Assembly (NCBI GenBank): GCA_903813345.2
Contig: CAIIXF020000001.1
Span: 61,955,885 to 62,019,884, forward strand
Source: Owenia fusiformis
Taxonomy: Eukaryota > Annelida > Polychaeta > Sabellida > Oweniidae
Reading direction: 5' to 3'
DNA: 64,000 nt
Each line of letters opens with the position of its first letter. Positions within the stretch are counted from its first letter, which is position 1. The position numbers and the translations under genes were made by a program. Positions 6,896 through 61,592 of this stretch are shown here, one piece after another. A model generated the notes under the pieces. That model was not told the origin of the DNA, ran no database searches, and saw only the letters and a program-made list of their open reading frames with translations.

Positions 6896-6938
6896 TATTA
6901 TATGATAGCATATCAAAGTCTGTCAATGTTTAAACCAT

Positions 6939-14349: not shown

Positions 14350-14351
14350 TA

Positions 14352-31813: not shown

Positions 31814-34800
31814 TCAAGTTTTGAAGTACTTGGTTTTTTTAGCAGGTGATGGTCCAACATCTACGCAACTTCTACTCAGCAGGTAATATCGCATTGTATA
31901 CTCTTCCATGCCAAAAGAAGGCATATTAAACTCCTTTAGTATTTCAATTTCAAACTTCTCTCCTGAAAGAATGTTAAAAGAAACGATCACTAATTTTTCG
32001 CTTTATTTGATTATTGCCAACTTAGACATGAATTCTATCGCAACTTTAGACAAGGCATTAGCATGACAAAATTTAACCACATAACTCCAATACTCACAAT
32101 ATTATTAGTTCAATCTTAAAGTCAGATTTGAATTTCGGAAAAAGAAATTGGTCAATTTGAAGCAAGTTGAAAAATACCCTTTTTGACCCTGAGGAGGTCA
32201 TTGAAGGTGAAATCTCAAATCGAAAGACAGATTCGAACTTCTTAGAACTTGGAGATGATTTTGAAAAATATTGGTCAATTTTGAGGCAAGTTGAAAAATA
32301 CCTTCATTGAAGGTCAAATATTTTTTATAAGGAGAATAAGGTCAAATTTACAGTGTGATTTGAACTTCTCATTAACTCGTAGATGATTTTGAAAAAGAGT
32401 GGTCAATTTGAAGCAGGTTGAAAAAAGACCCTTTTTTACCTTTCGTTTACATTTTTTGACTTTGAAAACGTCACTGAAGGTTAATATCAAGCTTAAATAT
32501 AAAGCTCAGATATAAGGTCAGATATGAACTTCTGAAAACTTGTACATGAAGATGATTTTAAAAAACTGAAGTCAGTCTAAACACTATTTGCTAAGTTATT
32601 TGAAGTTTTAAGAATTTGTTACAGACGCCAACTGCAACTGCCGATCGCCAACCACCACCCGGCGTTTCAAAAAACGGGCCGTAACAATATGTCACCACTT
32701 TTTGGTGGTGACATAATAGATTGGAAAATAAAAATTTCAAGGATAATTAAATACAAACACTTTGGGATATTGTTTACGATAATTTGTGGAAATAGCCTCG
32801 TACGTTATATGTAATATCAATATATATTCAAAACATAGACATATATACATACCATATAACGTCTCCATATCAGCTGGTGTAACACAGTGAGGAGGCCCTA
32901 AAACAAGTACAGGTTGAGCCAATAAGATTTATCCCTAGTCAAAGGTTTAAAGAAGGCTTTGGATGTAATATATATGTAAAATTGAAGCATTATACCTTTT
33001 CAACAAATACATGTCGATGATGAAAATGTAAAAATATATACCGGTACATTAACTTAATGAATCAAAAATAACTCAAAAAGATGATTTCTGCAAGTTAATT
33101 TCTCAATTATTTTTTTTGTGGAACAAATAATGTTACCTGAATACTGGTCCATGTCATACTAAATAAATGATGTTACCTGAGTACTGGTCCATGTCAAATT
33201 AAAGAAATGATGTTACCTAAGTACTGGTCCATGCCATACTAAATGATGTTACCTGAGTACTGGTCCATGTCAAATTAAAGAAATGATGTTACCTGAGTAC
33301 TGGTCCATGTCATACTGAATAAATGATGTTACCTTAGTACTGGTCCATGTCATACTGAATAAATGATGTTACCTGAGTACTGGTCCATGTCATACTGAAT
33401 AATTGATGTTACCTGAGTACTGGTCCATATACCGGTACATTAACTTAATGAATCAAAAATAACTCAAAAAGATGATTTCTGCAAGTTAATTTCTCAATTT
33501 GTTTTTTGTGGAACAAATAATGTTACCTGAATGCTGGTCCATGTCATACTAAATAAATGATGTTACCTGAGTACTGGTCCATGTCAAATTAAATAAATGA
33601 TGTTACCTGAGTACTGGTACATGTCATACTGAATAAATGATGTTACCTAAGAACTGGCCCATGTCATACTGAATAAATGATGCTACCTAAGAACTGGTAC
33701 ATGTCATACTGAATAAATGATGTTACCTAAGTACTGGTCCATGTCATACTGAATAAATGATGTTACCTAAGTACTGGTCCATGTCATACTGAATGATGTT
33801 ACCTGAGTACTGGTCCATGTCATACTGAATAAATGATGTTACCTGAGTACTGGTCCATGTCATACTGAATAAATGATGTTACCTAAGTACTGGTCCAAGT
33901 CATACTGAATGATGTTACCTGAGTACTGGTACATGTCATACTGAATAAATGATGTAACCTAAGTACTGGTCCATGTCATACTGAGAAAATGGTGTAACCT
34001 AAGTACTGGTCCATGTCATACTGAATAAATGATGTTACCTAAGTACTGGTCCATGTCATACTGAATAAATGTTGTTACCTAAGTACTGGTCCAAGTCATA
34101 CTAAATGATGTTACCTGAGTACTGGTCCAAGTCATACTGAATGATGTTACCTATAAAGTACTGGTCCATGTCATCCTGAATAAATTATATTACCTAAGTA
34201 CTGGTCCAAGTCATACTGAATGATGTTACCTAAGTACTGGTACATGTCATACTGAATAAATGATGTTACCTAAGTACTGGTCCATGTCATACTAAATAAA
34301 TGATGTTACCTAAGTACTGGTCCATGTCATACTGAATAAATGATGTTACCTAAGTACTGGTCCATGTCATACTGAATAAATGATGTTACCTAAGTACTGG
34401 TCCATTTTAAAATATTATTTTTTTTATCTTTATATTTCCTTTATTTCATAATACATCATACAAACAGATACAGGGCCTACACCGAAGCATTATTGGCCCT
34501 GTTGAAGTAGTTACAATATAAGTTAAAATAGGTCACAATGTACAAATGATAGATATAGAACATATTTATGAACATGAAAATAATCGTGAAAACGTGGAGA
34601 CAGGTCAGAGATATATGTACAAATTAATGAATATAGGACTATTTAACTTCCTTGACAATAAAGTGTAATAAAAATCCGGCTGTTAATTCAATAGCCTTTT
34701 TATTTGTAATTGTAATTGTAACTGGTCCATGTCATACTGAATAAATGATGTTACCTTTCTACTGGTCCATGTCATACTGAATGATGTTACCTGAGTACTG

Positions 34801-37800
34801 GTCCATGTCATACTGAATAAATGATGTTACCTCACTACTGGTCCAAGTCATACTGAATGATGTTACCTGAGTACTGGTCCATGTCATACTGAATAAATGA
34901 TGTTACCTGAGTACTGGTCCATGTCATACTGAATAAATGATGTTACCTGAGTACTGGTCCATGTCATACTGAATAAATAATGTTACCTAAGTACTGGTCC
35001 ATGTCATACTGAATAAATGATGTTACCTTACTACTGGTCCATGTCATACTGAATAAATGATGTTACCTAAGAACTGGTCCAAGTCATACTGAATGATGTA
35101 ACCTAAGTACTGGTCCAAGTCATACTGAAAGATGTTACCTTAGTACTGGTCCAAGTCATACTGAATGATGTTACCTAAGTACTGGTCCATGTCATACTGA
35201 ATAAATGATGTTACTTGAGTACTGGTCCATGTCATACTGAATAAATGATGTTACCTAAGTACTGGTCCAAGTCATACTGAATGATGTTACCTAAGTACTG
35301 GTCCATGTCAAATTAAATAAATGATGTTACCTAAGTACTGGTCCATGTCATACTGAATAAATGATGTTACCTTAGTACTGGTCCAAGTCATACTGAATGA
35401 TGTTACATAAGTACTGGTCCATGTCAAATTAAATAAATGATGCTACCTAAGTACTGGTCCATGTCATACTGAATAAATGATGTTACCTAAGTACTGGTCC
35501 ATGTCATACTGAGTAAATGATGTTACCTAAGAACTGGTCCATGTCAAATTAAATAAATGATGTTACCTGAGTACTGGACCATGTCATACTGAATAAATGA
35601 TGTTACCTGAGTACTGGTCCAAGTCATACTGAGTGATATTACCTAAGAACGGGTCCATGTCAAATTAAATAAATGATGTTACTAAGTACTGGTCCATGTC
35701 ATACTGAATAAATGATGTTACCTAAGTACTGGTCCATGTCATACTGAATAAATGATGTTACCTAAGAACTGGTCCATGTCAAATTAAATAAATGATGTTA
35801 CCTAAGTACTGGTCCATGTCATACTGAATAAATGATGTTACCTAAGTACTGGTCCAAGTCATACTGAATGATGTTACCTAAGTACTGGTCCATGTCAAAT
35901 TAAATAAATGATGTTACCTGAGTACTGGTCAATGTCATACTGAATAAATGATGTTACCTGAGTACTGGTCCAAGTCATACTGAATGATGTTACCTAAGTA
36001 CTGGTCCATGTCATACTGAATAAATGATGTTACCTGAGTACTGGTCCATGTCATACTGAATAAATGATGTTACCTGAGTACTGGTCCATGTCATACTGGG
36101 AGGCTGTGATGAGATATTTGCCATCGTCCTTAACCAAGGAGTGCATCAGCTGCGAATATCTAAAATAACACAATGTATTTGTATTTACATTGTTATTATC
36201 CATATGCTTAGCATAACAAAAATAATGTAATGAAAAGATGGTGATGAAGTCAAAATGCTTACTGTAGATTGGGTTAATTTGGCGCCCGCTTTAATTTGGC
36301 GAATTTGAAAAATTCACCAATATAAATCTTCGCCAAAATTTAGAATGAATCCCCGGGAATTATCTAGGTTATTTTGTCCAGTGTATTTAGGTCACTTCCA
36401 ATATGAAAAAATGTCTCTCATAAATTGGCTCAGAACTGGTCAGTCACTCATTAATACTCGGGAAAACTAGAAAGGAAAAGCACGGTATATTAGCAGCATT
36501 GATCGAGGTGCAAAATGTAAATGATCTCACAAAAATGTACAAACGTGGTGAATATCATCAGTGGTATCATGGGCATGGTGGTCCTCAAAAGAAAAAATGA
36601 ACATAGCCAAACATGCCCATTTACATGGTAATTCGTAAACAGCCAGTAAGTTTAACATTGTATTAACATTTTTTGCATATCCGCCAAATTAAATAGCTGC
36701 CAATATGCCAAAAATGGCAAAATCGCCAAATTAAGTAGCGCCAAATTAACCCAATCTACAGTATAATGTATCATTACTTTATTAAAGTATGAACTTTACA
36801 ACAGCCATCTTTGTATGAGTCTAATAAATAAAACCAAATAATAAACTCAATGTTACAACACAATGTTACGAGAAGTGTAATGTTAAAATGAGTCACGTAT
36901 TCCAGGCATTCTGCGTCATCTGTGAACATAGGAACAATTTACATGTACAGGGTGATCCAGAAGTAACGTCAAAGATGTTGTAATTTCAAAAGTATTCATC
37001 AGATCTTCATGAAATTTGGTATACATGTACCCACAACATTTCTGAGTTACCATCTCAAAGATTGGAATTCAATCATTTCATTGGTTGAAATTATGGTTGC
37101 TATAGTAACCCGATATCGCGTAACCCGGGGCAAATTACTTAACGTGTAATGCGTAATCTCAAAATATCAACAAGATCTGAAATTGTTATATCCTCAACAT
37201 TTTATTTCACAACAATATAAATCATACTATTGCACAGTTACTAATAATAGTTCATTCTACATAATTGCCACCATTTGCAACACATTTCTCATGTCTGGAT
37301 ACCCATTCCTTGAACACAGAATTAAATCCATTAGAACTCATTCCTTGTAGGGCTAGTACTACGGCATTTTTCAATTCCTCACAGGATTAAAAATTATTTC
37401 CACTAAGGTTTCTTTTTAGTTCCCCATACAAATAAAAGTCACTGGGGGCAAGATCAGGTGAATAAGGGGCATGTTCAAGTTGTTGAAATCCAAGTGTTTG
37501 GACTGTGTTGCTGGTCAGGATTGCAGTGTGCGTAGGGGCATTGTCCCAATGCAAGATAAACTGCTGCAGATGTCCGGGACGCTTTTTCCTCAGGGAACGT
37601 TGAAGATCACGCTTCAGAACCTGAAAAACAAATGTTTAATGGTTGTTAAACCAGTTGTTTCATTGATTGGATTTGGATTTGAATCATGGCCATGGAGTTA
37701 TAATTATATTGACAGTGAACAACATTTAAATACTTTAATTTAAAAATAAAATTCACAGTATGATGTATTATTAGAACAAATGATATCTTACCTTTGCAAT

Positions 37801-40800
37801 GTAAACGGCATTAATTCTCTGGCCAATGGGAACAAAATGGGTTAACACCATTCCTCTAATGTCAAAGAATGTCACAACCATTTGTTTCTTTTGTGGAATT
37901 CCTGGTACTATTTTAGGCTTGGTTGGTGTTGGGGAGTTGTCATGTTTCCACGATGAACTTTGTTGCCTGGTCTCTGGGATGTAGAATGATAGCAATGATT
38001 CGTCACTCGTAATGATCTTGTTAAGAAAGTCATCTCCATCTCTCCGATATTTTGCAAGAAAGTCCCTTGAAGCCTTAACACGCCGGTCTTTCTGCTCCTG
38101 TGTCAAGTCATGCGGCACCCATTTAGCAGACACCTTCTTTAACAGACAGTTCTTTGTCAGTATCCGTTGCACAGTCCCATAGCTCAGATCGTGTTTTTCA
38201 GCCAATTCTCTGATAGAAATTTGCCTATTGTCCCTAACATCAGCTTCAATTGCTTTGATGGTTTGATCATCGAATGACGACACTGGCCTGCCTCCTCGCT
38301 GCTTGTCTACCACTTCATCATATCCACTGGAATACTTGTTAAACCACCTGTAAATGTTTCTCTCAGCAATGGCAGCTTTACCATATGCCTTCTTTATCTG
38401 TCTTATAGTCTCTTTTACACCTTTCCCCAACTTTACACAGAACTTAATGTTTGTTCTTTGCTCTATTTTACTCTGACTTGGCGCCATCTTGAATTGGGTG
38501 GGTTAGTGTCCTTGGTCATGTTAGTATTTGTCATGGATGATGGAAGCAATTCAAAGAAATTGAAAGCTTTTTATGAATGCCTATTGTGACATCACAACTA
38601 TTACATATTTGTTACCATGGCAACAAATATAAAAATCATAGAAAACAAACAATGAACATTTTCAAATGTTACTGACTTTTTAAATTAGAGAAATTCACAA
38701 AAACGTTATGGTTTCTCTTCAATTTGCCCCGGGTTACGCGATATCAGGTTACTATAGCAACCATAATTTCAACCAATGAAATGATTGAATTCCAATCTTT
38801 GAGATGGTAACTCAGAAATGTTGTGGGTACATGTATACCAAATTTCATGAAGATCTGATGAATACTTTTGAAATTACAATGTCTTTGACGTTACTTCTGG
38901 ATCACCCTGTAGTTCTACATGAGAACAATTAACATTAATCAGGAAAGGGTTTAACTTGTTTTTTAATGTTACGCAGTGTGCTCTGAGGTATGATCAGGGT
39001 ATTTCTGACTTAATTTTGCATTAACAGTTTTATTTACATTAGTACTACAAGTATGTCTAAGAAAATATGAACTTACTCCTTTCTCTGGTCTCTATTGATG
39101 GCAACTAGTGAACCTCTATCCCACACAGCATCAAATCCACCAATCACTTGCCTTTATACAGTAGTAAAACAAAAACAATCAAATGCCAAAGTTCACTGAG
39201 TTCTACATTTGTGAGTGTTTGAATAACTTTTATGAATTTGTATTTGTTAATTCATACCATATGGTATGTAATGAACACAATTCAATTATCTCATTCAGAT
39301 TTCATTTATTTTTTCTATTGGATATTAATTCTTAAATGTTGATTTTATATTTAATCATCAACTGATATTGGTGAAAAAAGGTTTACACATACCTAGATAT
39401 GCTAAATAGGTCACAACTGAGGATCTCCAACTTTCCATCAATACTCTATGAGAAGAGAAACACATGCCAAAAATAGCATTATGAATACTGCGGGCTCACA
39501 TGGGAAGGATTCAATATTTTTAATATTTAACAGTAGGAGCTAAGAATAATGTTACAATTTCAATCAAATTATAGAATACTCGTGGAGTTACGACCAAAAA
39601 AAGCTGAAACCTGATTTTTCCATTTTGCCATTTGAGGAATTTCACAAGCACACATTACAATATTTAATTTATAGAATACCTTGTACACAGTGCCCTCTAT
39701 TGGGCCAATAGGTTGTGACTTAAATTCAATTCCCTGCTCCTCTGAGAACTGTTGTATTGCCAGCTCTGCTATCTCAACACCTACCACGTGGTGACCTCTA
39801 TCACACAACCTACATGAAAAATGAGGTAAGTACTATTATTGTTCCGTTATCTTAAGCTGTTGTATTGCCAGCTCTGCTATCTCAACACCTACCACGTGGT
39901 GACCTCTATCATACAACCTACATGAAAAATGAGGTAAGTACTATTATTGTACCTTTATCTAAAGATGTACACATTAAGCTACAATGGCAGATCAAATCTT
40001 TTTTAAACAATTGCTTTTAAAGTTGTTACACTAATTCATTAAGTACCAAAGTTATTAAAACATGATGCGCAACCTTTAATTTAATAATGCGAACTTATTA
40101 TTAGATGCTCAATTAATCAAAGTTATCGTAATGTCTATTCTAGTTTTTTTACAGTTATTTGAATACATACATACCATTTTAAATCAACAGATTTCCCACA
40201 CAAAGGCACAAATATTTTTAATTCTGTTCTACCATCAGTCAATGGCTCTATGTAGGTCTCCAATGCCCTAAATAACAACAGACTCAACGGTATTAAGATT
40301 TGCACTACATGTAGATATGATTGAATGCATTAGTTGAGAATATTTATTAACGCAAAACAAAAAAATATCATTTGAAATTGTGAATGCGATCCACAAAAAC
40401 AAACAACAACAAATATCTAAGATGTCACCAGCTGCCATTTGTTACAGGTGCAAAACTTCAAACACCAACTGCCGCTACAATGCACGAACGATGGTGAGTG
40501 CATTAGTGCTGACATTCTGTCCAACGAGTGTCAAAATACTATTCTCGGTTTGGAAAACGAAGTTCATTACTCTAATTGAGTGTTACCACTGCTTCGGACA
40601 AATTTGATTTTTTTTACATAATATAGATTAGAAAGTATTTTTTCTAATAATCATGATTCAATTTGGGTGATATTAATAGATTTTTCATGAAAAAATGATA
40701 AGCGCAGTACACTGATGAACTTCTTTCTGCAAATCGAGATTTGTATTTTATTTTTTCATAAAAAAACTATTAGCCCAGGAGACTGTTCTCCAAACAGAGA

Positions 40801-41154
40801 CGTGTCCTTTCCTATCATTATTTATTCCAATTAATTCAAACATACAAAATGATAACATTGTTCAGAGAATTGGGGAATAAGGTGCATAAAATAAGATGTG
40901 ACGTCACAGTACAACACAATACATAGATTCCCGAATGATTGACTAAAATGAGCAATATTTCATCATATTTTATACCCGAACTTTGGCTGATTCAGTTCAA
41001 TGATTAACTGTATGTGGTGCTATTCAGCTTTAAAATACAAGTACATGTATATGAAAACTTACTCATGGACGTCAACTTTGTGGAAAGGAACTCTGTCAGG
41101 ATCCCATGAGGTCCATGCTTTGTTCCATTCCAGGGCAGCACGTGCTGTAGACAT
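31814..41154 (-). CDS. TPMT-like methyltransferase, gene A (complete, 8 exons)
   Basis: This encodes a 240-residue member of the thiopurine S-methyltransferase family, cytosolic enzymes that transfer methyl from S-adenosylmethionine to thiols, selenium compounds or related nucleophiles. The true substrate is unknown. Exons: 41063-41154, 40175-40267, 39680-39809, 39393-39445, 39077-39151, 36074-36159, 32853-32897, 31814-31962. All introns are GT-AG and the frame is intact from ATG to TGA (723 nt). Family landmarks are W10/W14/W17 with VPFHKVDVH (22-30), the SAM-binding loop VPLCGKSVDLKW (51-62), GHHVVGVE (67-74), [14 protein letters not shown] (129-142) and GPPH (177-180). The length is close to vertebrate TPMT (about 245). 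The C terminus has a Lys-rich tail. Intron 5 holds a mariner element and intron 6 the 40-bp donor-site array. A (TA)-rich tract lies just upstream of the ATG. No signal peptide or membrane segment is visible. Confidence 0.93.
32051..32715 (+). repeat. GGTCAATTTGAAGCAAGTTG repeat element (copy 1)
   Basis: A non-coding element with internal sub-repeats of about 90-100 bp (AATTGGTCAATTTGAAGCAA, GACCCTGAGGAGGTCATTGA) ends in a C-rich block (CGCCAACCACCACCCG). The last 26 bases form a perfect hairpin, TGTCACCAC/GGTGGTGACA. A homologous copy lies at 59769-60412. This one sits in intron 7 of gene A. Confidence 0.7.
33041..36113 (-). repeat. 40-bp minisatellite carrying the exon 6 splice donor (gene A intron 6)
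   Basis: Roughly 65 tandem units are present, mostly 40 bp, with 36-bp variants lacking 4 bp. Read on the minus strand, each unit is CAGTATGACATGGACCAG + TACTCAG followed by GTAACATCATTTATT. The first 25 nt equal the 3' end of exon 6 (coding QYDMDQYS) and the rest is the intron start including the GT donor. The real exon 6 ends at 36074 as the first unit of the array. An internal duplication repeats the flank (TACCGGTACATTAACTTAAT) at 33041 and 33428. A SINE-like insertion splits the array at 34406-34721. Extending the exon into the next unit reads into an in-frame TGA. Confidence 0.95.
34406..34721 (+). mobile_element. SINE-like or LINE 3'-end insertion inside the 40-bp array
   Basis: About 316 bp unrelated to the array interrupt it. 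The insert ends in (TTGTAA)n-type simple sequence (TAATTGTAATTGTAA) and both sides abut ACTGGTCCAT, which may be a target duplication, although the same bases also occur in every repeat unit. No coding content. The simple-repeat tail suggests retroposition. Confidence 0.6.
36948..38909 (-). mobile_element. Mariner-like DNA transposon with about 190-bp terminal inverted repeats
   Basis: Left end CAGGGTGATCCAGAAGTAAC and right end GTTACTTCTGGATCACCCTG are inverse, flanked by TA on both sides. The inverted repeats run about 190 bp inward, to GCGTAACCCGGGGCAAATT at about 37137 and its inverse at about 38722, unusually long for mariner, where about 30 bp is common. The 1962-bp element carries a minus-strand transposase gene and lies in intron 5 of gene A, in the same orientation as the host gene. 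Confidence 0.93.
37252..38487 (-). pseudogene. Mariner transposase (DD34D) with a 171-bp intron and one premature stop
   Basis: The gene reads from ATG at 38487 through residue 232 (INAVYIAK), where the codon is followed by GTAAGA. A 171-bp non-coding stretch (37621-37791) ends in TTTGTTTTTCAG, after which the frame resumes at 37620 with VLKRDLQRSL, exactly where mariner proteins continue. Visible parts: N-terminal helix-turn-helix region (residues about 1-110, including RNIYRWFNKY and GRPVSS), the WVPHDL linker signature (typically WVPHEL), and catalytic Asp in TSDES, HWDNAPTH and SPDLAPSDFYLYG, with 34 residues between the second and third. A TAA at 37387-37389 truncates the protein at 309 residues. 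In-frame sequence continues 44 codons beyond it to a TGA at 37252-37254. Except for this stop the gene looks intact, implying recent activity. Confidence 0.88.
39751..39950 (-). repeat. 108-bp tandem duplication of the 5' part of gene A exon 3 with its acceptor
   Basis: The sequence from GTTGTATTGCCAGCTCTGC through the exon 3 acceptor and about 30 bp of intron is present at 39751 and again at 39859 (period 108). The outer copy lies in intron 2 and differs by few bases (TCATACAACC for TCACACAACC). It has an intact AG acceptor and the same reading frame for about 17 codons but lacks the rest of the exon, so it is a decoy or pseudo-exon start. Confidence 0.93.
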
Positions 41155-41163
41155 GTTCTGTAT

Positions 41164-41235: not shown

Positions 41236-41255
41236 TTAAACGTCAAAGCAGAAAC

Positions 41256-48200: not shown

Positions 48201-51200
48201 TTTGATTGAAATTTTATCATCATGGGTACTTCACTTGAAAGAAAACATATTGTCTTAATAAAAACACTGTCCAGAAAGTACTCATGGTGAAAGAATATAT
48301 GACCGTCTAAAATCACTTGCCATACTGCACATGGTCTTTTCATCAAAGTGCATCCTGACCTTAATTCATTTTTAGATCTTTCATATAAACAAATACTTTG
48401 TCTACCTGTCCATCCGATGCTATTAGCAAAATCCCCTATTTCTGCATCTTTCTTTTGTATCTAGTACTTGTATCTACAACTATTTTTGAGGTTATGAGTA
48501 TTGGCTATCAATTGGCTATCAATTTCTAATTTTTTCTTCAACATGTATTGTAATGACTTCAGTATGAATGAAATGTCCCCTGGTCTTCTGGTCTTGGATT
48601 GTGATATTGGTTCTTGAATGGTGGGGGGAAAGGGGGTATTAGACATTGTTTCTTTTCATGTTAGATCATGGTTTTGGGCTATATGGGGTTTGTTTTTCTT
48701 GACTGGTATGCACTTAGAGTTTGCTTTTTCTTGCTAAGTTCCATTACAACTGTTGGTCCTTTCCCTTTGGCACTAGTGCTTATATATTTGTATGAGTACT
48801 TGTATCTACAACTATTTTTCATGTTATGAGTATTGGCTATCGATTTCTAATTTTTTTTTCAACATGTATTGTAATGACTTCAATATGAATGAAATGTCCC
48901 TTGGTGTTCTGGTCTTGGAGACTGCACTTAGAGTTTGCTTTTCCTTGCTAAGTTCCATTACAACTGTTGGTCCTTTCCCTTTGGCACTTGTGCTTATATA
49001 TTTTGTCTATTCTTGTAAAGAGAATTAGTGATCTTCAAAGAAATTGGCAATTTTTCCTTCAATTTCAAGTGGAAACATACACGATTAATTATAAGCTAAG
49101 AACTACTAGATCAACCCACCCACCCAACCATTCAAATGTGTGTCATTGTTTAACAGTTAGCTTAATCGTTCCATTTATGTTTTATAAAAAATGTCTATGT
49201 AGTAATTATAATTCCTTACCTCATTATTTTTAAAACCTTTATATCACTTTATAAGTAATCATTATTAAGATTTATCAAACAAATCAGTACGCAAAATCCC
49301 AAGATGACCGTGCGATGCCACCAGGCGCTGTAAGATAATCGTACGATGACCGGACGGGACACGGGGTAGGCACCGATGAGTTTAGTTGAGAAAAAATCGC
49401 TAAGACATCGGCAACTTTTATCTCCGTGATAAAACTCTGCCGGCGCCCGTACGATGTCTAATAAAATTAGTACCGTGGGTACTGGGCTCACATGGTGACA
49501 GAAAAAAACGGATATAATTTTTTGCTGATTTTTTGTTACAAAATTATTTCAAGCCATCTGTCTCTCAGTCAATTAAAATGGCTGAAAAAAAAACGGATAT
49601 AATTTTTTGCCAATAATTTGTAACAAAATTATTTCATACAACTACTCTTTACAGTGACATGGCTTTTTGCAATGCAAGACACCTGAAATTACTTGTAAAG
49701 CTAGGAAATGGGCCAAAATTGAATTTCGCGAGACAAAAATGGCGACCATTTTGAAATCAGGCAAATTTTTGAACCAGGAGTCATAGGGGAGTTTTTTGTA
49801 TTGATTTTGAACAAAAATAACTTGAAACTGGAATCCTATCGACAGAGGTTTTAAGCAAATGGTCCAAAAGAGGATTTCGCGAGACAGATGGACAAATCAA
49901 TGTTAACTAAAATGGCTGAAAATAAAAAAACGGATATAATATTTTGCCGATTTTTTGTAAAAAAATTATTTCATACAACTGCCTTTTACAGTGACATGGC
50001 TTTTTACAATGCAGGACAGCTGAAATTATTTGTAAAGCTAGGAAATGGGCAAAAAGTGAATTTAGCGAAACAAGAATGGCAACCATTCCATGTTAACTAA
50101 AATGGCTGAAAATAAATAAATGGATATAATTTTTCGCTGATTTTTCGTAACAAAATTATTTCATACATCTACTCTTTACATTGACATGGATTTTTACAAT
50201 GTAGGACACTTGAAATTATTTGTAAAGCTAGGAAATGGGTCAAAAGTGAATTTCGCGAGACAAAAATGGCGGCCATTTTGAAAATAGGCGAGCTTTTGAA
50301 CCAGGAGTCATAGGGGAGTTTTCTGAATTGATGTTGAACAGAAATAACTTAAAACAGGAATCCTATCGACAGAGGTTTTAAAACGTGCCACAGAAAGTGG
50401 ATTTCGCGAGTCAGATAGACAAATCAATGTTAACTAAAATGGCTGAAAATAAAAAAACGGATACAATTTTTCGCTGATTTTTTGTAACAAAATTATTTCA
50501 TATATCTACCCTTTACATTGACATGGATTTTTACAATGTAGGACACCTGAAATTATTTGTAAAGCTAGGAAATGGGTCAAAAGTGAATTTCGTTCAGACA
50601 AAAGTGACGGCCATTTTGAAAATAGCCGAGCTTTTGAACCAAGAGCCATACGAGAGTTTTTTGTATTGATGTTGAACAAAAATAACTTAAAATGGGAATC
50701 CTATCAACAGAGGGTTTAAGGTAAATGATGCAAAAGTGAATTTTGCGAGACAGATGGACAAACCAATGTTAACTATAAAATGGCTGAAAATAAATAAATG
50801 GATATAATTTTAGCTGATTTTTCGTAACAAAATTATTTCATACATCTACTCTTTACTTTGCAATGGATTTCTACAATGTAGGACACTTGAAATTATTTGT
50901 AAAGCTAGGAAATGGGTCAAAAGTGAATTTCGCGAGACAAAAATGGCGGCCATTTTGAAAATAGGCGAGCTTTTGAACCAGGAGTCATAGGGGAGTTTTC
51001 TGAATTCATGTTGAACAGAAATAACTTAATACAGGAATCCTATCGACAGAGGTTTTAAAACGTGCCACTGTTATTGACAGAAAGTGGATTTCGCGAGTCA
51101 GATAGACAAATCAATGTTAACTAAAATGGCTGAAAATAAAAAAATGGATACAATTTTTCGCTGATTTTTTGTAACAAAATTATTGTATATATCTAATCTT

Positions 51201-54200
51201 TACATTGACATGGATTTTTACAATGTAGGACACCTGAAATTATTTGTAAAGCTAGGAAATGGGCCAAAAGTGAATTTCGCGAGACAAAAGTGACGGCCAT
51301 TTTAAAAATAGGCGAGCTTTTGAACCAGGAGTCATAGGGGGTTTTCTGTATTGATGTTGAACAGAAATAACTTAAAACGGGAATCCTATCGACAGAGGTT
51401 AGCTAGGAAATGGGCTAAAAGTGAATTTCGCGAGACAAAAGTGACGGCCATTTTGAAAATAGGCGAGCTTTTGAACCAGGAGTCATAGGGGGGTTTTCTG
51501 TATTGATGTTGAACAGAAATAACTTAAAACAGGAATCCTATCGACAGAGGTTTTAAAACGTGCCACTATTGTTGACGGATGGACGGACAGACGGACGGAC
51601 AGACGGACGGACGGACGGACAGACAGACGGACAAGTGAGTGATTGCAAAAGCTCACCATGTGAGCTAATAAAAATCAGCCGATGATCGCCTGGCGCAGTT
51701 ACGATGCCCTGGCTCGCCGGCCAATTTTGAACAAAATACTCATCAGCCGGGCGCCGTAGTGAAAATCGGAGCCTATGTGACCAAGGCATTACATAAAGAT
51801 CAGTCTTTAAGAGAATGTTTCTTGCAAGGGAAATGTACAGCCGTTTGCTTATGCAAAATTTGCTTGTATGTCTGAGGTGAGTATATCTACATGCAAGTAG
51901 TGTTTGAAAATATGTTGGCAATATGTAATGCAGCGAAAGGATTTGATATTATAATATTCAGTGGACCAACTTCATGTACAACTGTTTGAGTTAACAAAGT
52001 GAAATTTTGATACCTGTCAAATTTTAAGAAATCACAGCAATATATCCTAGTGAGGTTGTCTTCACTTGAGTAGAGGGGACAGCCTAGAGTCTTGTCTTTG
52101 CTTACTGTATAGGGGATCTCCTGTTCCTCAAAGTAGGTTTTTGCAGCAATCTCCTCAGTCTCAACACCAACCACTGTGTAACCCTGGTCACTCAACCTAC
52201 AACATGAAGCACAATATGTAAGCCTGGTCACTTAACCTACAACATGTAACCCCATGTGTAACCCTGGTCACTCAACCTACAACATGTAACCCTATGTGTA
52301 ACCCATGTCACTGTAAACCCATGTGTAACCCTGGTCACTCAACCTACAACATGTAACTCCATGTGTAGCCCTGGTCACTCAACCTAATTGTAACCCTATG
52401 TGTAGCCCTGGTCACTCAACTTACAACATGTAACCCTATGTGTAACCCATGTCACTCAACCTACAACATGTAAACCCATGTGTAACCCTGGTCACTCAAC
52501 CTACAACATGTAACTCCATGTGTAACCCTGGTCACTCAACCTACAACATGACACTCAATGTGTAACCCTGGTCGCTTAACCTACAACATGTAACCCTATG
52601 TGTAACCCTGGTCACCCAAACTACAACATGTAACTCCATGTGCAGCCCTGATCACTCAACCTACAACATGTAAAACCATGTGTAACCCTGATCACGCATC
52701 CTACAACATGTAACTCCATGTGCAGCCCTGGTCACTCAACCTACAACCTGTTAAACCATGTGTAACCCTGTTCACTCAACCTACAACATGTAACCCCATG
52801 TGTAAGCCTGGACACTCAACCTACAGCATGTAATTCCATGTGTAACCCTGGTCATTCAACCTACAACATGTAACTCCATGTGTAACCCTTGACACTCAAC
52901 CTACAACATGTAACTCCATGTGCAAACCTGAGGCCTTATCACGCGCTCGTCGCAAGATTTGCGTTTGCGTCTGCATTGCGTTTGCAAATCGACAATTTGC
53001 GCTAGCCAACTCCTACATTGGGTCTTATCACGGGATTGTTGCAACGCAGATCGCAACGTATCTGGTAGTTTACCACATGCGATCGCAATAATGTAGACTT
53101 CCAACTAAACATAAATTGGTGGGGAAATACTGTTAATGAGTACAGTGCCCATGTCACAGAACTTTTTTGATGCCCATTGACTTACCGGGCCTTATACAAA
53201 TACTTATCTCGAAATGAGTTTTACTTTTAAATGTAGAAAGTGATTATTTCAGTCAAAAACTATAAACGTGTAAAGATATCACACATCATCACTGATCTTT
53301 AAGTTCAATTTTCATGGGATTTATTTCTAAGTATATCACACTCGTCAGAACACACTCTCACCCTAGTGCACCCTCATGAGTAACTCTAACCAGAGTACAC
53401 CCTAGTCATCTGGTGAAAGTATGTACTATCAAGGGTTCACCCAGGTTGCGGGTTTGAGTATGTATGACGTGGCTTTAAACGGGAGGATGGACCAACGGAC
53501 GGACGGACAGATGGACAGACCAACGGACGGACACCTGGTCGATCCCATAGGCTCACTGTGTGAGCCAAAAAAGAGTGTACTGAGAAGGATGCGCTCAGAT
53601 AAGAGCCTGTTCAGACGAAACTTTACTCAGTTTAGAGCATGTAATGACAAAGGTGCACTCGGATAAGATTGTGTACTGACTGACGAATGTGCACTCTGGT
53701 GAGAGGGTGTATTGATATTCAACGACGTTTAGGAGTCAAATCATAATATCAGAATGTTTGCTTCTAGATGGCATCCGCTCCTAGACATAGTCCACAGTCA
53801 TTTATTTACATCTAAATAAAAGTATCGTGAGTGTAAAGGACGTTTGCATTTTCCAGTAAAAATCAAATATTCCACCATTTATGTTAAAACTATTTCAGTG
53901 CGATCGAAACCCCCAATTAGCAAATACTGATTTGCGTTCAATGGGGGGAGGGGTCAATGTAATTTCTCATTTAATTTCAAAATACCCCCAAGGGTGTTTA
54001 CTTCAAGGGAAAGTATAATTTCAAGTTGACCTTGGCCAAGGGTGTCATTAAGCGAAATAGAAATACCTTGATTCACTCAATATCTGTCAAAAATTACAAT
54101 ATACTGTATTCCAATTAAGTCCCTACTTGTCATTTGTAAGTTGCCTGTTGCAAAGAACCTAAAAGTTATGCCCAATTTTAGCAATGCTGGAATGAACGTA

Positions 54201-57200
54201 GTGTTTTGTTTTCTTGGATTTGCGATCAAAATTTGGATTTAATTATAGAATTCAAAGATTTTAAAGGCTCCTCATACCTTTTAACTTTTTATTACACAGT
54301 CGCCTTTAGAAAAGATCATACTTCGCAATCAATAAAGAAACCCCTAGATTGACACATTTAAAATAGATAACAAGTGTCTTAAAGATTGGTAATATTTGCG
54401 ATTGATTTGCGGCAGGGTAAGAGCTATCGCAACTTTTTGGTCTGTTGCGAATGAAACATCATTGAAACACATTGAAACAATTAGATTGACAAGAAGTTTG
54501 CTATAGGAATTATATGTGTCATCAACGTCGTCAAGTCTTTGCAAGTCTGGAAAGGAGTAGTTTTTAAAATCATTGAGGAAAGCCTCGGGATCGAAAGACT
54601 TATAACTCCTGTATGTAAATAGTCTTGGGTTTGGCTGGTGATAGAAAGCCCTTCAGGACTGTGGATACACAGTGATGAAAATCAATCAGCCCAGTGGCAT
54701 AGGCATCTGTTAGTGTAAATCATTGACTCCTGTTACTTAGTATGATGTCCAAAATAGATGGGGCTCCCTTGAAGCAGGTTGCACAAGTGCTTATATATTG
54801 CAGTATCTACAATTGTTTTTTAGATCCAAGGTGTCGCATAAATCGCATAAAGGTCTCCCTTTGGATTCAGGTGGGTTTAAATCCATATTCAGATCTCCAG
54901 GAACTAGGTGATCTGATTTGGTAAGGCACTTGTCCAGTGCAAGTGATAGATCCTGTGTAAAAAGTAAAGGATCTCCTGAAGGGGGTCTATAAGCAGCTGT
55001 TATAATCCATTTACGATTATTTATTGTGGCTTCAAGGATATAATAGTCTCCAGTTTTGAAGGTTGTAGATTCTTGAGTTGGCTACTTGGAATATCATCCC
55101 TCATATAAAGGAGTAGACCATGTCCACTGATTGATCTATCCTCTTGGTAGAGTTTGTAGCATGGGACACTGAATTGTTGGCTTGGGAAAGAATCATCCAA
55201 CTTGGATTCTGATTTGACTAGCAAGTCGGCTGACTGTTCTGATAGGAACAATTTTATTTCCGGCCTTGAATTTGTTCCTAATACTGTTTATATTTAAGTG
55301 TGCGAAGATGAAGTTTTTGGGGTATTTGTTTCTAACTTCCTGTATGTATGACACTGTGGGGATATCTTCATGAGTGTCTTCATTAGAGGAATGTATGGAA
55401 GACAGGTTGAGTTGAAAAAACAGTCTGTAAAATTAAAAGCGGTGCATGTGGGGCATACTGAGTTAAATGTTCCTGATTGACATAGTTTGTTTAATCATTG
55501 GGCGATACGGAACCACATTTAATGTGAACTCAGTGATAGCATGAATCGCATTCCAGGGCAACAGGTTTTTACAAGAATGCAGAAAGAAGTAGCAAGCAGG
55601 GTAAAGTGTTTGAGCGAGACCCAAATATTCACCAATATTCATCTTTCCACCAGATGTGAAGCAAATCTGTCCACTAGTACTCGAGTTATCTTCCAGACGA
55701 TTGGACGGACAGACAAATGGACGGAGGGCTTCACTATATCCCTACTGAACTTTGGGACGTTCATTGGGATGATGATACTCCTGGATTACTTAGTACAAAT
55801 TTTCAGTGAATTTGAGTCATCAATTACTCAGATGCGAGTAGTTAGTTACCAGTTTCGCCACCAGGTGACTGATTCTGGGAATTAACATGGCAGGGTATTA
55901 CAAAATTCCCTTAAACTTGAAAATGCATCAGTTTTAGTGGTTTTACTTTTCATATTACCATTATGTATCTGATGTTATACAAATTAAAATATGTCCAGTA
56001 AAAGAAAATATTATCTGCCCAACACAAGAACAGATATTTCACTTTTTGTGGTTTTACAACATGGGGTCTATGGGGAATCTCCCCGACCTAGAAGTCACAT
56101 TTTCAAAGTTGAAAAACTCTTTTCAAAACCACATTTCTTGATGTAATTTTACATGTAGATTCCAAATATGACATCAGTTTGAATTTTTAATGACGTAAAT
56201 CAAGATTATTTCTACTCACATCTGGGATATTGCCAAGGAAATACTTGTCAAAAAGCGATTCATTTTTTGGGACACCCCAATAAATGTCCATCATGAGAAG
56301 AGAAACTGTGAAACATAATGTAACAGGTTTAGGATTTTTATGTAAGATTTCTTCAGAGTGACAAGAATCTGTATACTTTCTAGCTTCATTGTATTTTCAT
56401 CAGTCATTACCAAATAAAGAGACCGAATGATCAAATGATTTACATGTTTTATGTTGCATCTTACCATTTCATGTCAACAGCTTTTCCACAAAGAGGAACA
56501 AGAATCCTGAGGGTTGGCTTGCCTCGTGTTAACGTCTTTAAGTACTTTTTAAGGTACCTGAAATAATGCATATTTATTGCAATTTATATCAGCACCCATT
56601 TCCTTTGCTCGCTTAATTGCAACAGAAATATCAACCAGAACAACGGCAACGCCAAAGCGTAGCGAATCCCATCGAACAGAAATGGCTGGCATTTTTACAA
56701 ACGAATAGCAAATATCATAAAACAACACACCAGAAAGGCCACCATTTTCAAAATGATTGCTCTCTAGCCAAGTTGTCATCAGAAGAAATAATATGCTTTT
56801 AAGTAGCCACCTCTAAAATTTTTAAAAAATCACACATGTACTTGTAAAACCAGAACAACGGCAACGCCAAAGCGCAGCGAATCCCATCGAACAGAAATGG
56901 CTAGCATTTTTACAAACGAAGCGCAAATATCATAAAACAACACACCAGAAAGGCCACCATTTTCAAAATGGTTCCTCACTAGCCAAGTTGTCATCAGAAG
57001 AAATAATATGCTTTTAAGTAGCCACCTCTAAAATTTTTGAAAAATCGCACACGTACTTGTAAAATAACACACATAAAAATGGTGGCCATTTTTCAAAATG
57101 GCCGACTACTCCCCAAAGTTTTATTAGACAATGTGCCATGCTTAAAGTATTCACATATCAAATATGAACAAAATCGCTCCACTACTTTTCGAGTTATAGT

Positions 57201-59637
57201 AGAATACGTTAAAATGGCGGACATTTTTCAAAATGGCCACCTTCTACCAAAAGCGTCATTAGAAATAGACGGTGTACCATGCTTATAGTATTTACATACC
57301 AAATATGAACAAAATCGCTCCACTACTTTTCGAGTTATAGTAAAGTACGTTAAAATGGCGGCCATTTTTCAAAATGGCCGCCTTCTAACAAAAGTGTCTT
57401 TAGACAGTGTGCAATGCTTATAGTATTCACACACCAAATATGAACAAAATCGCTCCACTATTTTTTGAGTTACAGCAAAAATCGTAAAATGACGAGTAAA
57501 GGCCGCCATTTTTCAAGATGGCTGCCATGTGCTTTTTTAATATCTACATTTGTAGCATTATTAATGTCCTTTATAATTTTTTTACATTTAAAACATATTG
57601 CTATTACAGTTTTACATATTGCACCTAAATTACTGTAAAATCGTCACTAAAATGGCCGCCATTTTGAAATGAGTGGCCATTTTGAAAATCGGCTTTCGAG
57701 CAGAACTTCTACCCCCATAAGGTATATGTGTACAAAATATGAACAAAATCGGGCCAACGGTATTTGAGTTATTGCCCGGACGGACAGACGGACGGACGTA
57801 CGTACGGACGGACGTACGTACGGACGGACGGACGGACGGAGGCGTTTCCTATATCCCTCCGAACTTCGTTCGATGGGATAATAACACACATAAAAATGGT
57901 TTCCATTTTTCAAAATGGCTGACTACTCCCCAAAGTTTTATTAGACAATGTGCCATGCTTAAAGTATTCACATATCAAATATGAACAAAATCGCTCCACT
58001 ACTTTTCGAGTTATAGTAAAATACGTTAAAATGGCGGCCATTTTTCAAAATGGCCACCTTCTACCAAAAGTGTCATTAGAAATAGACAGTGTGCCATGCT
58101 TATAGTATTCACATACCAAATATGAACAAAATCGCTCCACTACTTTTCAAGTTATAGTAAAATACGTTAAAATGGCGGCCATTTTTCAAAATTTTTTTCA
58201 AAATGGCTGCCTTCTACCAAAAGTGTCATAGGACAGTGTGCCATGCTTATAGTATTCACATACCAAATATGAACAAAATCGCTCCACTACTTTTCAAGTT
58301 ATAGTAAAAGACGTTAAAATGGCGGCCATTTTTCAATTTTTTTTTCAAAATGGCCGCCTTCTACCCAAAGTGTCATAGGACAGTGTGCCATGCTTATAGT
58401 ATTCACATACCAAATATGAACAAAATCGCTCCACTACTTTTCGAGTTATAGTAAAATACGTTAAAATGGCGGCAATTTTTCAAAATGGCCGCCTTCTACC
58501 AAAAGTGTCTTTAGACAGTGTGCAATGCTTATAGTATTCACATACCAAATATGAACAAAATCGCTCCACTATTTTTTGAGTTACAGCAAAAATCGTAAAA
58601 TGACGAGTAAAGGCCGCCATTTTTCAAGATGGCTGCCATGTGCTTCTTTAATATCTACATTTGTAGCATTATTAATGCCCCTTATAATTTTTTTACATTT
58701 AAAACATATTGCTATTACAGTTTTACATATAGCACCTAAATTACTGTAAAATCGGCACTAAAATGGCCGCCATTTTGAAATGAGCGGCCATTTTGAAAAT
58801 CGGCTTTCGAGCAGAACTTCTACCCCCATAGGGTATATGTGTACAAAATATGAACAAAATCGGGCCAACGGTATTTGAGTTATTGCCCGGACGGACGGAC
58901 GTACGGACGGACGGACGGAGGCGTTCCCTATATCCCTCCGAACTTCGTTCAATGAGATAATTACACAAAATATTGGACATGTAACTGAAATTTAAAAAAA
59001 GAAGTCATTTAAACTAGTTCAACTTAAAAACTAGTAAGTTCATCTCTCAGATTTATATAGTATCTTTTTAACACTTTATTATTTTTTTCAGAGAAAACAA
59101 TTGACTTTATTGACTCTTTCGACCTACCTGTATCCACAAGTCTTTCAAGATTGAATTTTAATAAAATTGTTTTCTCTGAAGAAATGTATAAAGTGTTTAA
59201 AATATTGCCCATCTCTACAAGGGAGCGCAGCGAATGAGTGAAGATCGGCTATATCTAAGAGTGGATGAAAATGATAGCCAAGAAAATCATAGGATATCAT
59301 ATTTTTTATCCTATGGTCAATATTTTTGTATGGACTTAAAGTAATTAGACCTAAAAGTTGTTGTTTTCTATTTTTCATTTTATTTTCTGTGAACTTATTC
59401 TTACAAAATGATTGTAGGGAAAAAATGTAACTCATTTTTACTGAGCACATTACCTTGGAACTATATTGTCAAACAGACAATTGCAAGTGGTTATCACAAT
59501 TTTTAAAAAAAAATTCCAATTTTTTCATTTCTCATACTTACTTATGAACGTCGTTCTTATGCCAATGTAGAGTGCCTTTCTCCCAACATGTTCTCCAGTA
59601 CTCTGACAAGTTGCGATTACTCGCAATAGAATGCTCT
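45285..59637 (-). CDS. TPMT-like methyltransferase, gene B (6 exons recognised)
   Basis: A second TPMT-family gene. Exons: 59542-59637, 56465-56557, 52014-52196, 46912-46986, 46320-46450, 45285-45583. Landmarks: [70 protein letters not shown] and FGEQHRAW. Exon 3 (183 nt) equals gene A exons 3+4, and exon 5 (131 nt) equals gene A exons 6+7, so the two genes differ by two introns at precise positions. The intron after exon 4 uses a GC donor (CCCAG/GCAAGT). The first listed exon has a good acceptor (TTGTTTCAG), so an upstream exon with the start codon is probable; otherwise ATG at 59658 could serve. The family's usual end is near [10 protein letters not shown], but the frame stays open about 55 codons to a TGA at 45285; a donor at AAG/GTACAC or a C-terminal extension are alternatives. 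Introns carry many repeats. Confidence 0.85.
46353..46770 (-). repeat. 143-bp tandem triplication of gene B exon 5 acceptor region
   Basis: The functional exon 5 (5' edge at 46450) is followed upstream by two additional copies of its first ~98 nt, with intact AG acceptors at 46593 and 46736 (period exactly 143). The copies lack the 3' part of the exon and its donor. In the exon frame the middle copy meets a TGA after about 10 codons. The outer copy stays open for over 30 codons, with TPMT-like residues (YCQALLSLI and YNGPPHQ). Confidence 0.93.
47300..47840. mobile_element. GC-rich MITE-like block with CGTACGG motifs
   Basis: Within intron 3 of gene B, GC-rich segments (CATCGGCCGATTTCTAAATC, GACCGGGCGCCGGTG, CGTACGGTGCCCGC and its near-inverse GACCGTACGGCACCC) stand out from AT-rich surroundings and are partly self-complementary. 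Similar motifs recur at about 49300-49460 and 51675-51790. A short 72-codon frame crossing it is not convincing. Confidence 0.45.
48455..49012 (-). pseudogene. Tandemly duplicated relic, perhaps LINE ORF1-derived
   Basis: Two copies about 325 bp apart share the stretches GTACTTGTATCTACAACTAT, CAACATGTATTGTAATGACT and TTAGAGTTTGCTTTTTCTTG. On the minus strand both encode related peptide pieces ([20 protein letters not shown] and [13 protein letters not shown]), interrupted by stops and frameshifts. The basic, helical look fits a retroelement ORF1-like protein, but I cannot name the family. Confidence 0.4.
49467..51670 (+). mobile_element. GCTCACATGGTGA element with about six ~350-bp units and a GGAC microsatellite
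   Basis: It starts like the 44413 copy and runs through repeated units, each carrying ATGGCTGAAAATAAA, TACAATGTAGGACAC, AAGCTAGGAAATGGG, GAATTTCGCGAGACA, GAACCAGGAGTCATAGG and CCTATCGACAGAGG. It ends with GACGGACGGACAGACGG-type microsatellite (51577-51632) and GCTCACCATGTGAGCT at 51651-51666, which pairs with the starting GCTCACATGGTGA. Short frames in units ([11 protein letters not shown]) are by-products. It lies in intron 3 of gene B. Confidence 0.85.
51671..51792. mobile_element. Small GC-rich MITE (GATGATCGCCTGGCGC)
   Basis: A 120-bp GC-rich segment next to the preceding microsatellite contains ATCAGCCGATGATCGCC and CATCAGCCGGGCGCCG, and ends ATCGGAGCCTATGTGACCAA GGCATT, resembling the inverse end of the 15795-15909 hairpin (ATCGGAGCAAATATGACCCA). 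Confidence 0.45.
52197..52930 (-). repeat. 40-bp minisatellite carrying the exon 3 splice acceptor (gene B intron 2)
   Basis: About 18 units of 40 bp directly adjoin gene B exon 3. Read on the minus strand each unit contains CATGTTGTAG followed by GTTGAGTGACCAGGGTTACAC, i.e. the AG acceptor plus the first ~21 nt of exon 3, and then ATGGAGTTA-like linker. Units vary at a few positions, and some lack part of the motif. Splicing to any upstream unit and reading through would meet an in-frame TAG formed by the next acceptor (TTG TAG). Confidence 0.95.
52931..54340. other. Non-coding stretch with repeat fragments in gene B intron 2
   Basis: No gene was recognised. At 52940-53095 lies a block with alternating GCGTTTGC/TTGCGATCG motifs (CGCAAGATTTGCGTTTGCG, TTGCAACGCAGATCGCAACG). 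At 53485-53565 lies a degenerate GGAC microsatellite followed by GGCTCACTGTGTGAGCC, a perfect 8-bp-arm palindrome like the GCTCACATGGTGA family ends. Confidence 0.5.
54340..55420 (-). pseudogene. LINE endonuclease-domain relic
   Basis: Minus-strand fragments give the N-terminal apurinic-type endonuclease of LINE ORF2 in order: [16 protein letters not shown] (about 55310), [15 protein letters not shown] and [22 protein letters not shown] (55021-55251), [21 protein letters not shown] and [11 protein letters not shown] (about 54880-55010), then ILDIILSN-like remains. Glu of the SESKLD motif and Asn of GDLN match the catalytic pattern. Frameshifts and stops break the frame several times. It lies in intron 2 of gene B and has no RT domain attached. 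Confidence 0.8.
55827..56226. mobile_element. MITE (copy 2) of the CCCAGATGCGAGTAG family
   Basis: Homologous to 4094-4523 along its length, with start CTCAGATGCGAGTAG and end CTACTCACATCTGGG. It shares GGGTCTATGGGGAATCTCCC and TGACGTAAATCAAGATTATT. Non-coding. It lies in intron 2 of gene B, about 240 bp from exon 2. Confidence 0.75.
56633..57060 (+). repeat. 219-bp tandem duplication in gene B intron 1
   Basis: The block beginning CCAGAACAACGGCAACGCCA occurs at 56633 and 56852 with few differences, each running through AGAAAGGCCACCATTTTC and TAAGTAGCCACCTCTAAAA. The block also forms the start of the neighbouring ATGGCGGCCATTTTTC element. Confidence 0.85.
57037..58970 (+). mobile_element. 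Two tandem copies of an ATGGCGGCCATTTTTC element ending in GGAC microsatellites
   Basis: Each copy (about 57037-57880 and 57881-58965) consists of repeated ~140-bp units (AAAATGGCGGCCATTTTTCA, TGCCATGCTTATAGTATTCA, AAATATGAACAAAATCGCTC, TTTTCGAGTTATAGTAAAAT). Then come TTTGAGTTATTGCCCGGACG, a GGAC/GTAC-type microsatellite and the end CTATATCCCTCCGAACTTCG. The palindromic GGCGGCCATTTT motif alternates with its inverse. Minus-strand frames with [12 protein letters not shown] are translations of the microsatellite, not genes. Confidence 0.85.
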
Positions 59638-59768
59638 CTGAAACAATTGCAATACATTACGTTGGAAATAGTGATTATGTTATACAGTATATTTGCAAAA
59701 TGTAATTTCAGATACCATACTAGAGGGACTATTTGTAAAAAGGGGAGGGACTGGCACATTTCAAAAAC

Positions 59769-60412
59769 AAGGCATTAACATGACAAAATGTCACCACCTA
59801 GTCAGATTTGAATTCCTGAGAACTTTCATAACTTTATTTTGAAATATAATTGGTCAATTTGAAGCAAGTTGAAGGTCAAATATTTTTTTGATCTTGAGAA
59901 TGTCATTGAAGGTCAAATCTATAGTTAGATTTGAACCTTTGAGAACTTTTGAGAATTTTTAAGCAAGTTGAAAAAAAACCTTTTTGACCCTGAGAAGGTC
60001 ATTGTAGGTGAAATCTCAAATCTAAGACAGATTTGAACTTCTGAGAACTTGTAGTTGATTTTGAAAAATAATTGGTCAATTTGGAGCAAGTTGAAGGTCA
60101 AATATTTTTTTGATCTTGAGAATGTCATTGAAAAAATTTTGAAAAAATACCTTTTTTGTCCTTGAAAAGGTCACTGAAGGTCAAATCTTAAATATAAAAT
60201 CAGATTTAAACTTCTGAAAACTTTTAGATACTTTTGAAAAACAGTCTAAACAGTCTTTGTAATGTTATTAGAAGTTTTAAGAATTTGTTACAGACATCAT
60301 CCGCCACCCGCCGATCACCAATAGCCGATTGCCAACCACCACCCGCCAATCCCCGATCACCATCACAAAAAAACGGAGACCATATGTCATATGTCGCCAA
60401 CATAATTACTAT
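59769..60412 (+). repeat. GGTCAATTTGAAGCAAGTTG repeat element (copy 2)
   Basis: Homologous to 32051-32715, with the same internal sub-repeats and a C-rich end (GCCAACCACCACCCGCCAAT). The terminal hairpin is degraded here. It lies between the 3' end of gene C and the first recognised exon of gene B. Confidence 0.7.
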
Positions 60413-60692
60413 TTAGGCAAAAAAAACATTACACATTTTTCTCATTAGACTCCTAGATGATTCGTTCTTGTGTATTGTTGCTATGCATCCCATGTGTTTT
60501 GTCTTTGTACAACCTTCTAAACACCCAAGTCAATAAAAGGCATATTTCCATCAAATGGTATATTAAAAGATTATCCAAAAATAACAACAGTTTTTATGCA
60601 TGGGACATGTTTGAGAGTTATAATTCCCTATAGCCCAACTGTTTAGGGGTTAATAACACAGAAGTATGTAAAAATACTTGAACAGTGTAGGC

Positions 60693-61592
60693 TTACTTGT
60701 GGGACACTAATAAGCAGCGTCTGTCTACTTCTTCCAAGTTAAATTGAGGGGCTGGGGAAGTGTGGCTATGGACACATGTGACTGTGTATTCCTCACCAAA
60801 TAAACTCACAACTTCTTCCTCTGTGTGGTGATGGGGAGGGCCTGTACAAAATGATGCAAAACATTGAAGTCCCTAGTTTGCTTAGGAGGGCCTGTACAAA
60901 ATGATGCAAAACATTGAAGTCCCTAGTTTGCTTAGTTAGCCCAAATACATAATGAAACCATCATAATGGTTATAATAATCAGCTTCTCATAAGCTCCACA
61001 ATTATTAAGCTTAATGCAGAATCAGCTCATCTTCTGAATTTTTATTTGAATGTATTACCTAAGTACTACTACATCTTCTATTATTGAATACATTTATGTT
61101 ATTTCTTCAGTCTTTAAACATCATGTTCTTAACTTCATTTACAATATATATTAAAAATGAGATGCAATTAAAAAAACATAGTTTACGTTCGATGTAGCTG
61201 ATTTAAAAAATTGACAAATAAAAGACAAACCTTTATATTTGGTTCTCTCATACTTCAAAATATTAAGTAGAATATTGCACGATGGGGACATAAGTTGTTT
61301 TAACATATCAACATACCTAAAACATTGGAACATTTGACAAAATACAACAACAGAATATGATAATTTGCTGTCAATTCAATTGTAAGTCATGAAATTAGAT
61401 TCTACACTTTGTTCTATTGTAACTGTTATTAAAAAGGAAACATTTTTAAAATAAAAAAATCAATTTACCTCACAATTATACTGATTAATTATTTAATGTA
61501 CATGTATAAATGCATACATATTTACATCTGCTCTTTGCACTGCTACAAATCCACCTCTGTCCCATATACCATCAAATACACCTTCATACTCT
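60693..61592 (-). CDS. TPMT-like methyltransferase, gene C (last three exons; 5' part outside the window)
   Basis: A third TPMT-family gene, of which only the C-terminal part is visible. Exons: 61518-61592 (75 nt, EYEGVFDGIWDRGGFVAVQR), 61231-61316 (86 nt, YVDMLKQLMSPSCNILLNIL then KYERTKYK) and 60693-60841 (149 nt, GPPHHHTEEEVVSLFGEEYT to a TAA after CLLVSHK). The 75- and 86-nt exons equal the homologous exons of gene A, and the GPP junction is at the same position, but the gene A intron between exons 7 and 8 is absent. The WDRG motif is intact. The donor after the 75-nt exon is AT/GTATGC, chosen over an earlier GTAAAT because it restores the conserved length and frame. Upstream exons with the SAM-binding loop must lie beyond base 64000, across the 49-bp array. 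Confidence 0.88.
60836..60940 (-). repeat. 50-bp tandem duplication of the gene C last-exon acceptor
   Basis: The block GAGGGCCTGTACAAAATGAT ... CCCTAGTTTGCTTAG is present twice, at 60837 and 60887 (period 50). On the minus strand it carries TTGTACAG/GCCCTC, so the acceptor and first bases of the last exon are duplicated in the intron. Confidence 0.93.

Follow-up and report, generated by a model that had tools for sequence, protein, structure and literature searches.

Tandem repeats that run across exon-intron boundaries are known from amphioxus as mirages, the first of which were reportedly described by Canestro et al. in 2002. According to the papers on them, mirages lie at both boundaries, in Adh3 and in the globin genes BflGb6 and BflGb9 (PMC3087553) and also in troponin C and PGBD5 (PMC3902484), and they are reported not to disturb splicing (PMC3087553, PMC3902484). 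As far as these sources go, the arrays that we describe from Owenia fusiformis are like the amphioxus ones in the unit, which holds exon and intron sequence, and in the authentic site at the exon-side edge; they differ in the annelid host, in reaching up to 67 units and in being read here from one genome assembly alone. Intron gain by tandem duplication has been described for ATP2A1, fission yeasts and potato RdRp, and the Rogers model keeps the peptide unchanged (PMC4974935). The Owenia arrays share with that model a tandem duplication carrying splice signals, except that the model places a new intron inside an exon whereas in Owenia existing introns are lengthened and no new intron was seen. 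Also in human segmental duplications internal tandem repeats modify genes, and these are likewise minisatellite expansions in paralogues, some at exon-intron boundaries; about half of them lie in coding sequence and change exons, whereas the mRNA predicted for Owenia is unchanged (PMC2812944). No annelid mirage was found among the matches listed for the openly accessible literature. The Owenia junction arrays are real and match mirages, a kind already known; what is new is the lineage, an annelid, and a rough frequency.

The window, by which we mean the whole stretch of 64,000 nucleotides that was analysed (C1:61955885-62019884), holds three genes, all on the minus strand, here called A, B and C. 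Gene models were built by hand on splice signals and the spliced proteins were then scanned with Pfam, along with four other frames from the window (two transposon, two reverse transcriptase). All three genes are thiopurine-methyltransferase-like (TPMT, PF05724), with E-values of 5.4e-50, 2.5e-57 and 1.4e-47 and bit scores of 170.5, 194.5 and 162.6 for A, B and C respectively against a curated cut-off of 26, and most of the domain is covered in each. On spliced translation and Pfam, gene A (31814..41154) is complete in 8 coding exons (41063-41154, 40175-40267, 39680-39809, 39393-39445, 39077-39151, 36074-36159, 32853-32897 and 31814-31962), with an intact frame of 240 aa and introns that are all GT-AG; its best solved relative is human TPMT (2bzg, 8.2e-48). 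Gene B (45285..59637) has at least 6 exons on the same evidence (59542-59637, 56465-56557, 52014-52196, 46912-46986, 46320-46450 and a last one from 45583). Its 5′ start was not found in the gene model and its 3′ end is uncertain, and the modelled part contains no stop codon. The donor of its exon 4 (46912) belongs to a GC-AG intron (AG|GCAAGT), the other introns being GT-AG. For gene C, the 3′ part lies in the window (60693..61592; exons 61518-61592, 61231-61316 and 60693-60841, again from spliced translation and Pfam) and the upstream exons lie outside it, in flank segments L001 and L002 of the 17 kb that were read past the window; the whole is an open frame of 230 aa. A search of the genome, in which short exons can be missed, found no TPMT match outside the cluster. 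Gene A intron 5 houses a mariner-like element with inverted ends (36940-38910), whose transposase frame carries Pfam HTH_48 and Transposase_1 in its first part and is split by about 140 bp that look like an intron, being bounded by GTAAG and TTTCAG. An intron within a mariner transposase is, to our knowledge, unusual.

From the letters alone, the first-pass annotation had described five tandem duplications in the three methyltransferase paralogues, each straddling an exon-intron boundary, and Tandem Repeats Finder, the gene models and Pfam place all five where it had put them, with copy numbers that needed small corrections in three of them. All five lie on the minus strand. The largest is the gene A exon 6 donor array (33121-36098, exon end at 36074), with 67 scored units against about 65 claimed, of 40 (or 36) bp, the unit being made of 24 exonic and 16 intronic nt; it is interrupted by a non-array segment of about 310 bp near 34406-34715, with a further break near 33430-33506. 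The gene A exon 3 acceptor array (39749-39968, exon start 39809) is 2 x 108 bp as claimed, with 61 exonic and 47 intronic nt per unit. In gene B, the exon 3 acceptor array (52171-52930, exon start 52196) has 19-20 units of 40 bp (26 exonic and 14 intronic nt) instead of about 18, and the exon 5 acceptor array (46351-46750, exon start 46450) has 2.8 copies of 143 bp (100 exonic and 43 intronic nt) instead of 3. The gene C last-exon acceptor array (60835-60935, exon start 60841) consists, as claimed, of two identical 50-bp copies with 7 exonic and 43 intronic nt each. A sixth junction array, at the donor of gene C exon 2, was found outside the window, where it occupies 77911-79831 (window numbering), with about 51 copies of 38 bp, perhaps grown from a 19-bp unit of 12 exonic and 7 intronic nt.

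All six arrays sit at splice junctions of the gene models and none splits an exon. In each the unit holds exon and intron sequence of one junction. The frame is in every case preserved by splicing at the exon-proximal copy, with the additional copies placed towards the intron, as judged from exon models and coordinates. The extended TPMT span, that is with upstream gene C included, contains 14 arrays, 8 of which cross no junction. Among these is a 49-bp minisatellite of 6.6 kb in a gene C intron (61613..64000 and on to 68209 in window numbering, L001:4209), which fills nearly the whole intron between two exons and ends just short of both splice sites; it was scored as a miss. We rejected it as a mirage together with another long array of gene C, of 32-bp units, because neither crosses a junction. 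That the repeats were mis-assembled at exon edges is most improbable: long arrays are hard to assemble, and the paper on the amphioxus globins does report one mirage aberrantly assembled in a draft (PMC3087553), but here the copies differ from one another by many variants and show higher-order patterns, other sequence interrupts the gene A exon 6 array, and like structure is found at unrelated loci.

Placement was compared with a random-seed model in which each array is one unit-length seed dropped at random in the gene span. For the 11 arrays of the window, 1.53 junction matches are expected and 5 were observed (P = 0.009), and for the 14 arrays of the extended span 1.49 are expected and 6 were observed (P = 0.0014); on leaving out four arrays with units of 141, 147, 190 and 215 bp, which on visual inspection were taken to belong to dispersed repeats, P for the extended span becomes 7.5e-6. 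These values are post hoc because the locus was chosen for the feature. The flank outside the window, to which the first-pass annotation did not extend, alone gives 3 arrays, 0.11 expected and 1 observed (P = 0.11). The clustering at the locus therefore exceeds the random-seed model, and it also recurs elsewhere in the genome; reading exon by exon, which had been offered as a possible source of the pattern, is not its whole cause, as an unbiased repeat finder shows. At TPMT the count is four times the expectation, and for plain chance to suffice, the post hoc choice and the wealth of repeats in the region would have to explain this.

Elsewhere in the genome, placement was examined in a sample of 140 loci, each 1.8 kb long with a P450, kinase or sulfotransferase exon at its centre, giving 280 edges. 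The exons were hand-picked as short matches before any repeat search (40 of 104 P450, 61 of 139 kinase and 39 of 125 sulfotransferase) from the best-scored candidates only in each profile list, and the 280 edges are ends of profile matches, not all of them proven splice junctions. With cut-offs of period ≥15 and score ≥80 the sample holds 38 arrays, which cross 4 of the 280 edges: both the acceptor and the donor in L054, the donor in L069 and the acceptor in L085. Since 2.14 crossings are expected, the observed rate fits random seeds (P = 0.17; O/E 1.87, 95% CI 0.51-4.8), and pooling the sample with the TPMT flank gives 5 against 2.25 expected (P = 0.08). On lowering the score cut to ≥50, 69 arrays are obtained with 2.74 crossings expected, and no further crossing of a central edge was seen. 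The fraction of edges crossed is 6 of 38 at TPMT against 4 of 280 in the sample (Fisher P = 0.0003, also post hoc). Junction arrays do recur in the sample, and their excess over random placement there is not significant.

Further arrays occur at four neighbouring exons, namely at the acceptor of L053 and at the donors of L111, L110 and L140; in two cases, L110 and L140, the repeat unit served to predict a coding exon, which the adjoining DNA then proved to contain. L110 is the weaker case, its main 34-bp array starting about 56 nt past the junction so that only a short 19-bp array crosses. Eight sample arrays thus have exon and intron sequence in the unit, L110 less clearly so. Counting all exon edges, mirages are 8 of the 38 sample arrays against 2.3-4.2 expected (P 0.003 to 0.07), an expectation that depends on the assumed density of exon edges; this count is also less clean because edges of neighbouring exons were not listed systematically. 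At L054:447-1128 one kinase exon has junction-spanning arrays at both ends, with 3.8 copies of 86 bp at its acceptor and two copies of 71 bp at its donor. L110 (with L144) and L111 are paralogous sulfotransferase genes on different chromosomes with exon-derived repeats at a common donor, so the array probably predates the gene duplication. Junction arrays therefore occur in many genes of this genome and the phenomenon is not local; a mild genome-wide excess is possible. Several candidates were rejected as mirages: in L013 the array starts about 9 nt inside the intron, in L042 and L129 it ends about 10 and 16 nt before the exon respectively, and in L118 and L104 the arrays adjoin the junction without crossing it. 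Also left uncounted was L097:1632-1673, where two 21-bp copies span a kinase donor and include only 3 exonic nt; its score of 70 is below the cut of 80, and it is a small case, possibly a young one. At L099:746-1097 two similar kinase exon copies lie about 180 bp apart, probably a tandem duplication reaching coding sequence; the sampled region was placed between them, and L099 holds no array of period ≥10.

The first-pass annotation had also suggested a mutational mechanism acting at junctions. On that explanation exon edges, with AG|GT or the transcribed exon sequence as possible starting points, would give rise to duplications more readily than plain intron does; we consider this explanation rather unlikely. 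The TPMT excess, the sample O/E above one and the 8 of 38 arrays counted with all edges are what it would predict, but the sample and pooled values do not reach significance, so the mechanism is not established, and AG|GT is not present at every junction (gene C exon 2 has TG|GT and L069 has CT|GT). The make-up of the units also bears on this. Of 13 independent arrays, 11 have units at least half of which is exonic (binomial P = 0.02; by the Wilcoxon test, P = 0.07), with 6-26 intronic nt in donor units and 14-47 in acceptor units, and this exon richness again favours a junction-biased process. Random placement does not predict exon-rich units; the exon-poor L097 below the score cut softens this point, and if it is added (3 of 21 nt exonic) the count becomes 11 of 14 with P of about 0.06. 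Exon richness may reflect functional filtering, or else the way in which the duplications begin. A more specific proposal is that in this lineage exon edges are the preferred starting points of short tandem duplications, whose units would be mostly exonic and hold no more intron than the splice site needs. We hold this to be unlikely, slightly more so because arrays with very little exon are easier to miss, as L097 shows. If true, minisatellites would arise with particular frequency at splice junctions, and these would steadily lengthen introns and provide material from which new introns could form.

Selection on decoy splice sites was the other explanation put forward in the first-pass annotation, whereby copies are kept as decoys that tune splicing or trigger unproductive transcripts. 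In its favour, none of the gene A exon 6 units with letters at that position lacks GT, and AG is intact in 17 of 18 such units of gene B exon 3. But in these two arrays 15 of 40 and 16 of 40 unit positions overall are as invariant as the splice dinucleotides, and the gene C exon 2 array retains the decoy GT in no more than 34 of its 52 rows (a one-letter fragment is among the 52). Also, in the three arrays whose copies were numerous enough for a comparison, conservation is no higher at exon-derived than at intron-derived positions (Mann-Whitney P of 0.85, 0.20 and 0.34). Within the copies, therefore, neither splice sites nor exon-derived bases are better conserved than the rest.

On translating the alternative splice forms, every decoy tested in the six TPMT arrays would truncate the protein. 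At gene A exon 6, all of the array's 73 candidate donors would lead to a stop after 183 aa (240 in the authentic form), all 99 in gene C exon 2 to a stop after 63 aa (authentic 230), and the single gene A exon 3 decoy to a stop after 88 aa. Gene B decoys were judged by stops appearing where the authentic form has none, because the modelled part of gene B has no stop: all 19 upstream TAG|G sites of exon 3 would give stops after 70-80 aa, and both decoys of exon 5 would give stops after 159 and 186 aa. The one gene C last-exon decoy would stop after 81 of 102 aa (part modelled). Truncation is what unproductive splicing needs, and taken alone it would also fit decoys that lower expression. Together, on sequence evidence, conservation and truncation speak for silent growth with the exon-side site in use and against selected decoys, which we regard as very unlikely.

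The TPMT arrays are probably mirage-type minisatellites, which would have grown in the ordinary way from duplications that by chance covered splice junctions and were tolerated. In such a course a short tandem duplication of about 20-140 bp would arise over a splice junction by chance, presumably through slippage or end joining. The splice site adjacent to the exon body would be the one used, the decoys would be ignored by the splicing machinery, and the extra copies on the intron side would be removed with the intron. The gene would keep working because one arrangement still yields the old mRNA, and growth of the array, which we take to be neutral, would be tolerated because introns absorb the extra copies. 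In some arrays unequal exchange would then raise the number of copies into the dozens, as it does in minisatellites generally.

The position of the window may bear on the density of arrays at this locus. It lies 182-246 kb from the end of C1, and in the sample the tandem-repeat coverage tends to be higher the nearer a locus is to a contig end (Spearman -0.22, P = 0.009), being 2.4% beyond 10 Mb (69 loci), 17% at 0.5-1 Mb (6 loci) and 6.5% below 0.5 Mb (4 loci). The coverage of the TPMT span is 34% against 4.3% in the sample. Given this wealth of tandem repeats and the trend towards contig ends, a repeat-rich end is likely to be part of the answer, and we infer that the TPMT cluster is dense in mirages partly because it is near the contig end. 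L054 is 69 kb from the end of contig C5, and the sample mirages other than L054 and L110 are at least 7 Mb from contig ends. TTAGGG was absent from the C1 end among the matches listed (100 of about 19,000) and is present near the C7 end.

Mirages are found at about 1-2% of the sampled exon edges, and among the literature found, as far as its accessible parts show, the published ones are from lancelets only. This frequency suggests that introns widely absorb duplications covering their own splice sites. The arrays are natural experiments on how the spliceosome chooses among dozens of near-identical sites, and could serve to test ideas on how introns lengthen and arise.

Other repeats were also observed in the window. 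A 7-kb minisatellite of 56-bp units with a strong strand skew (GC skew about -0.5) is present at 17379-24314, and near it lies a 17-bp array at 25224-26082. Long reverse-transcriptase frames (RVT_1) are found at 6909-9083 on the forward strand and at 12574-14376 on the complementary strand.
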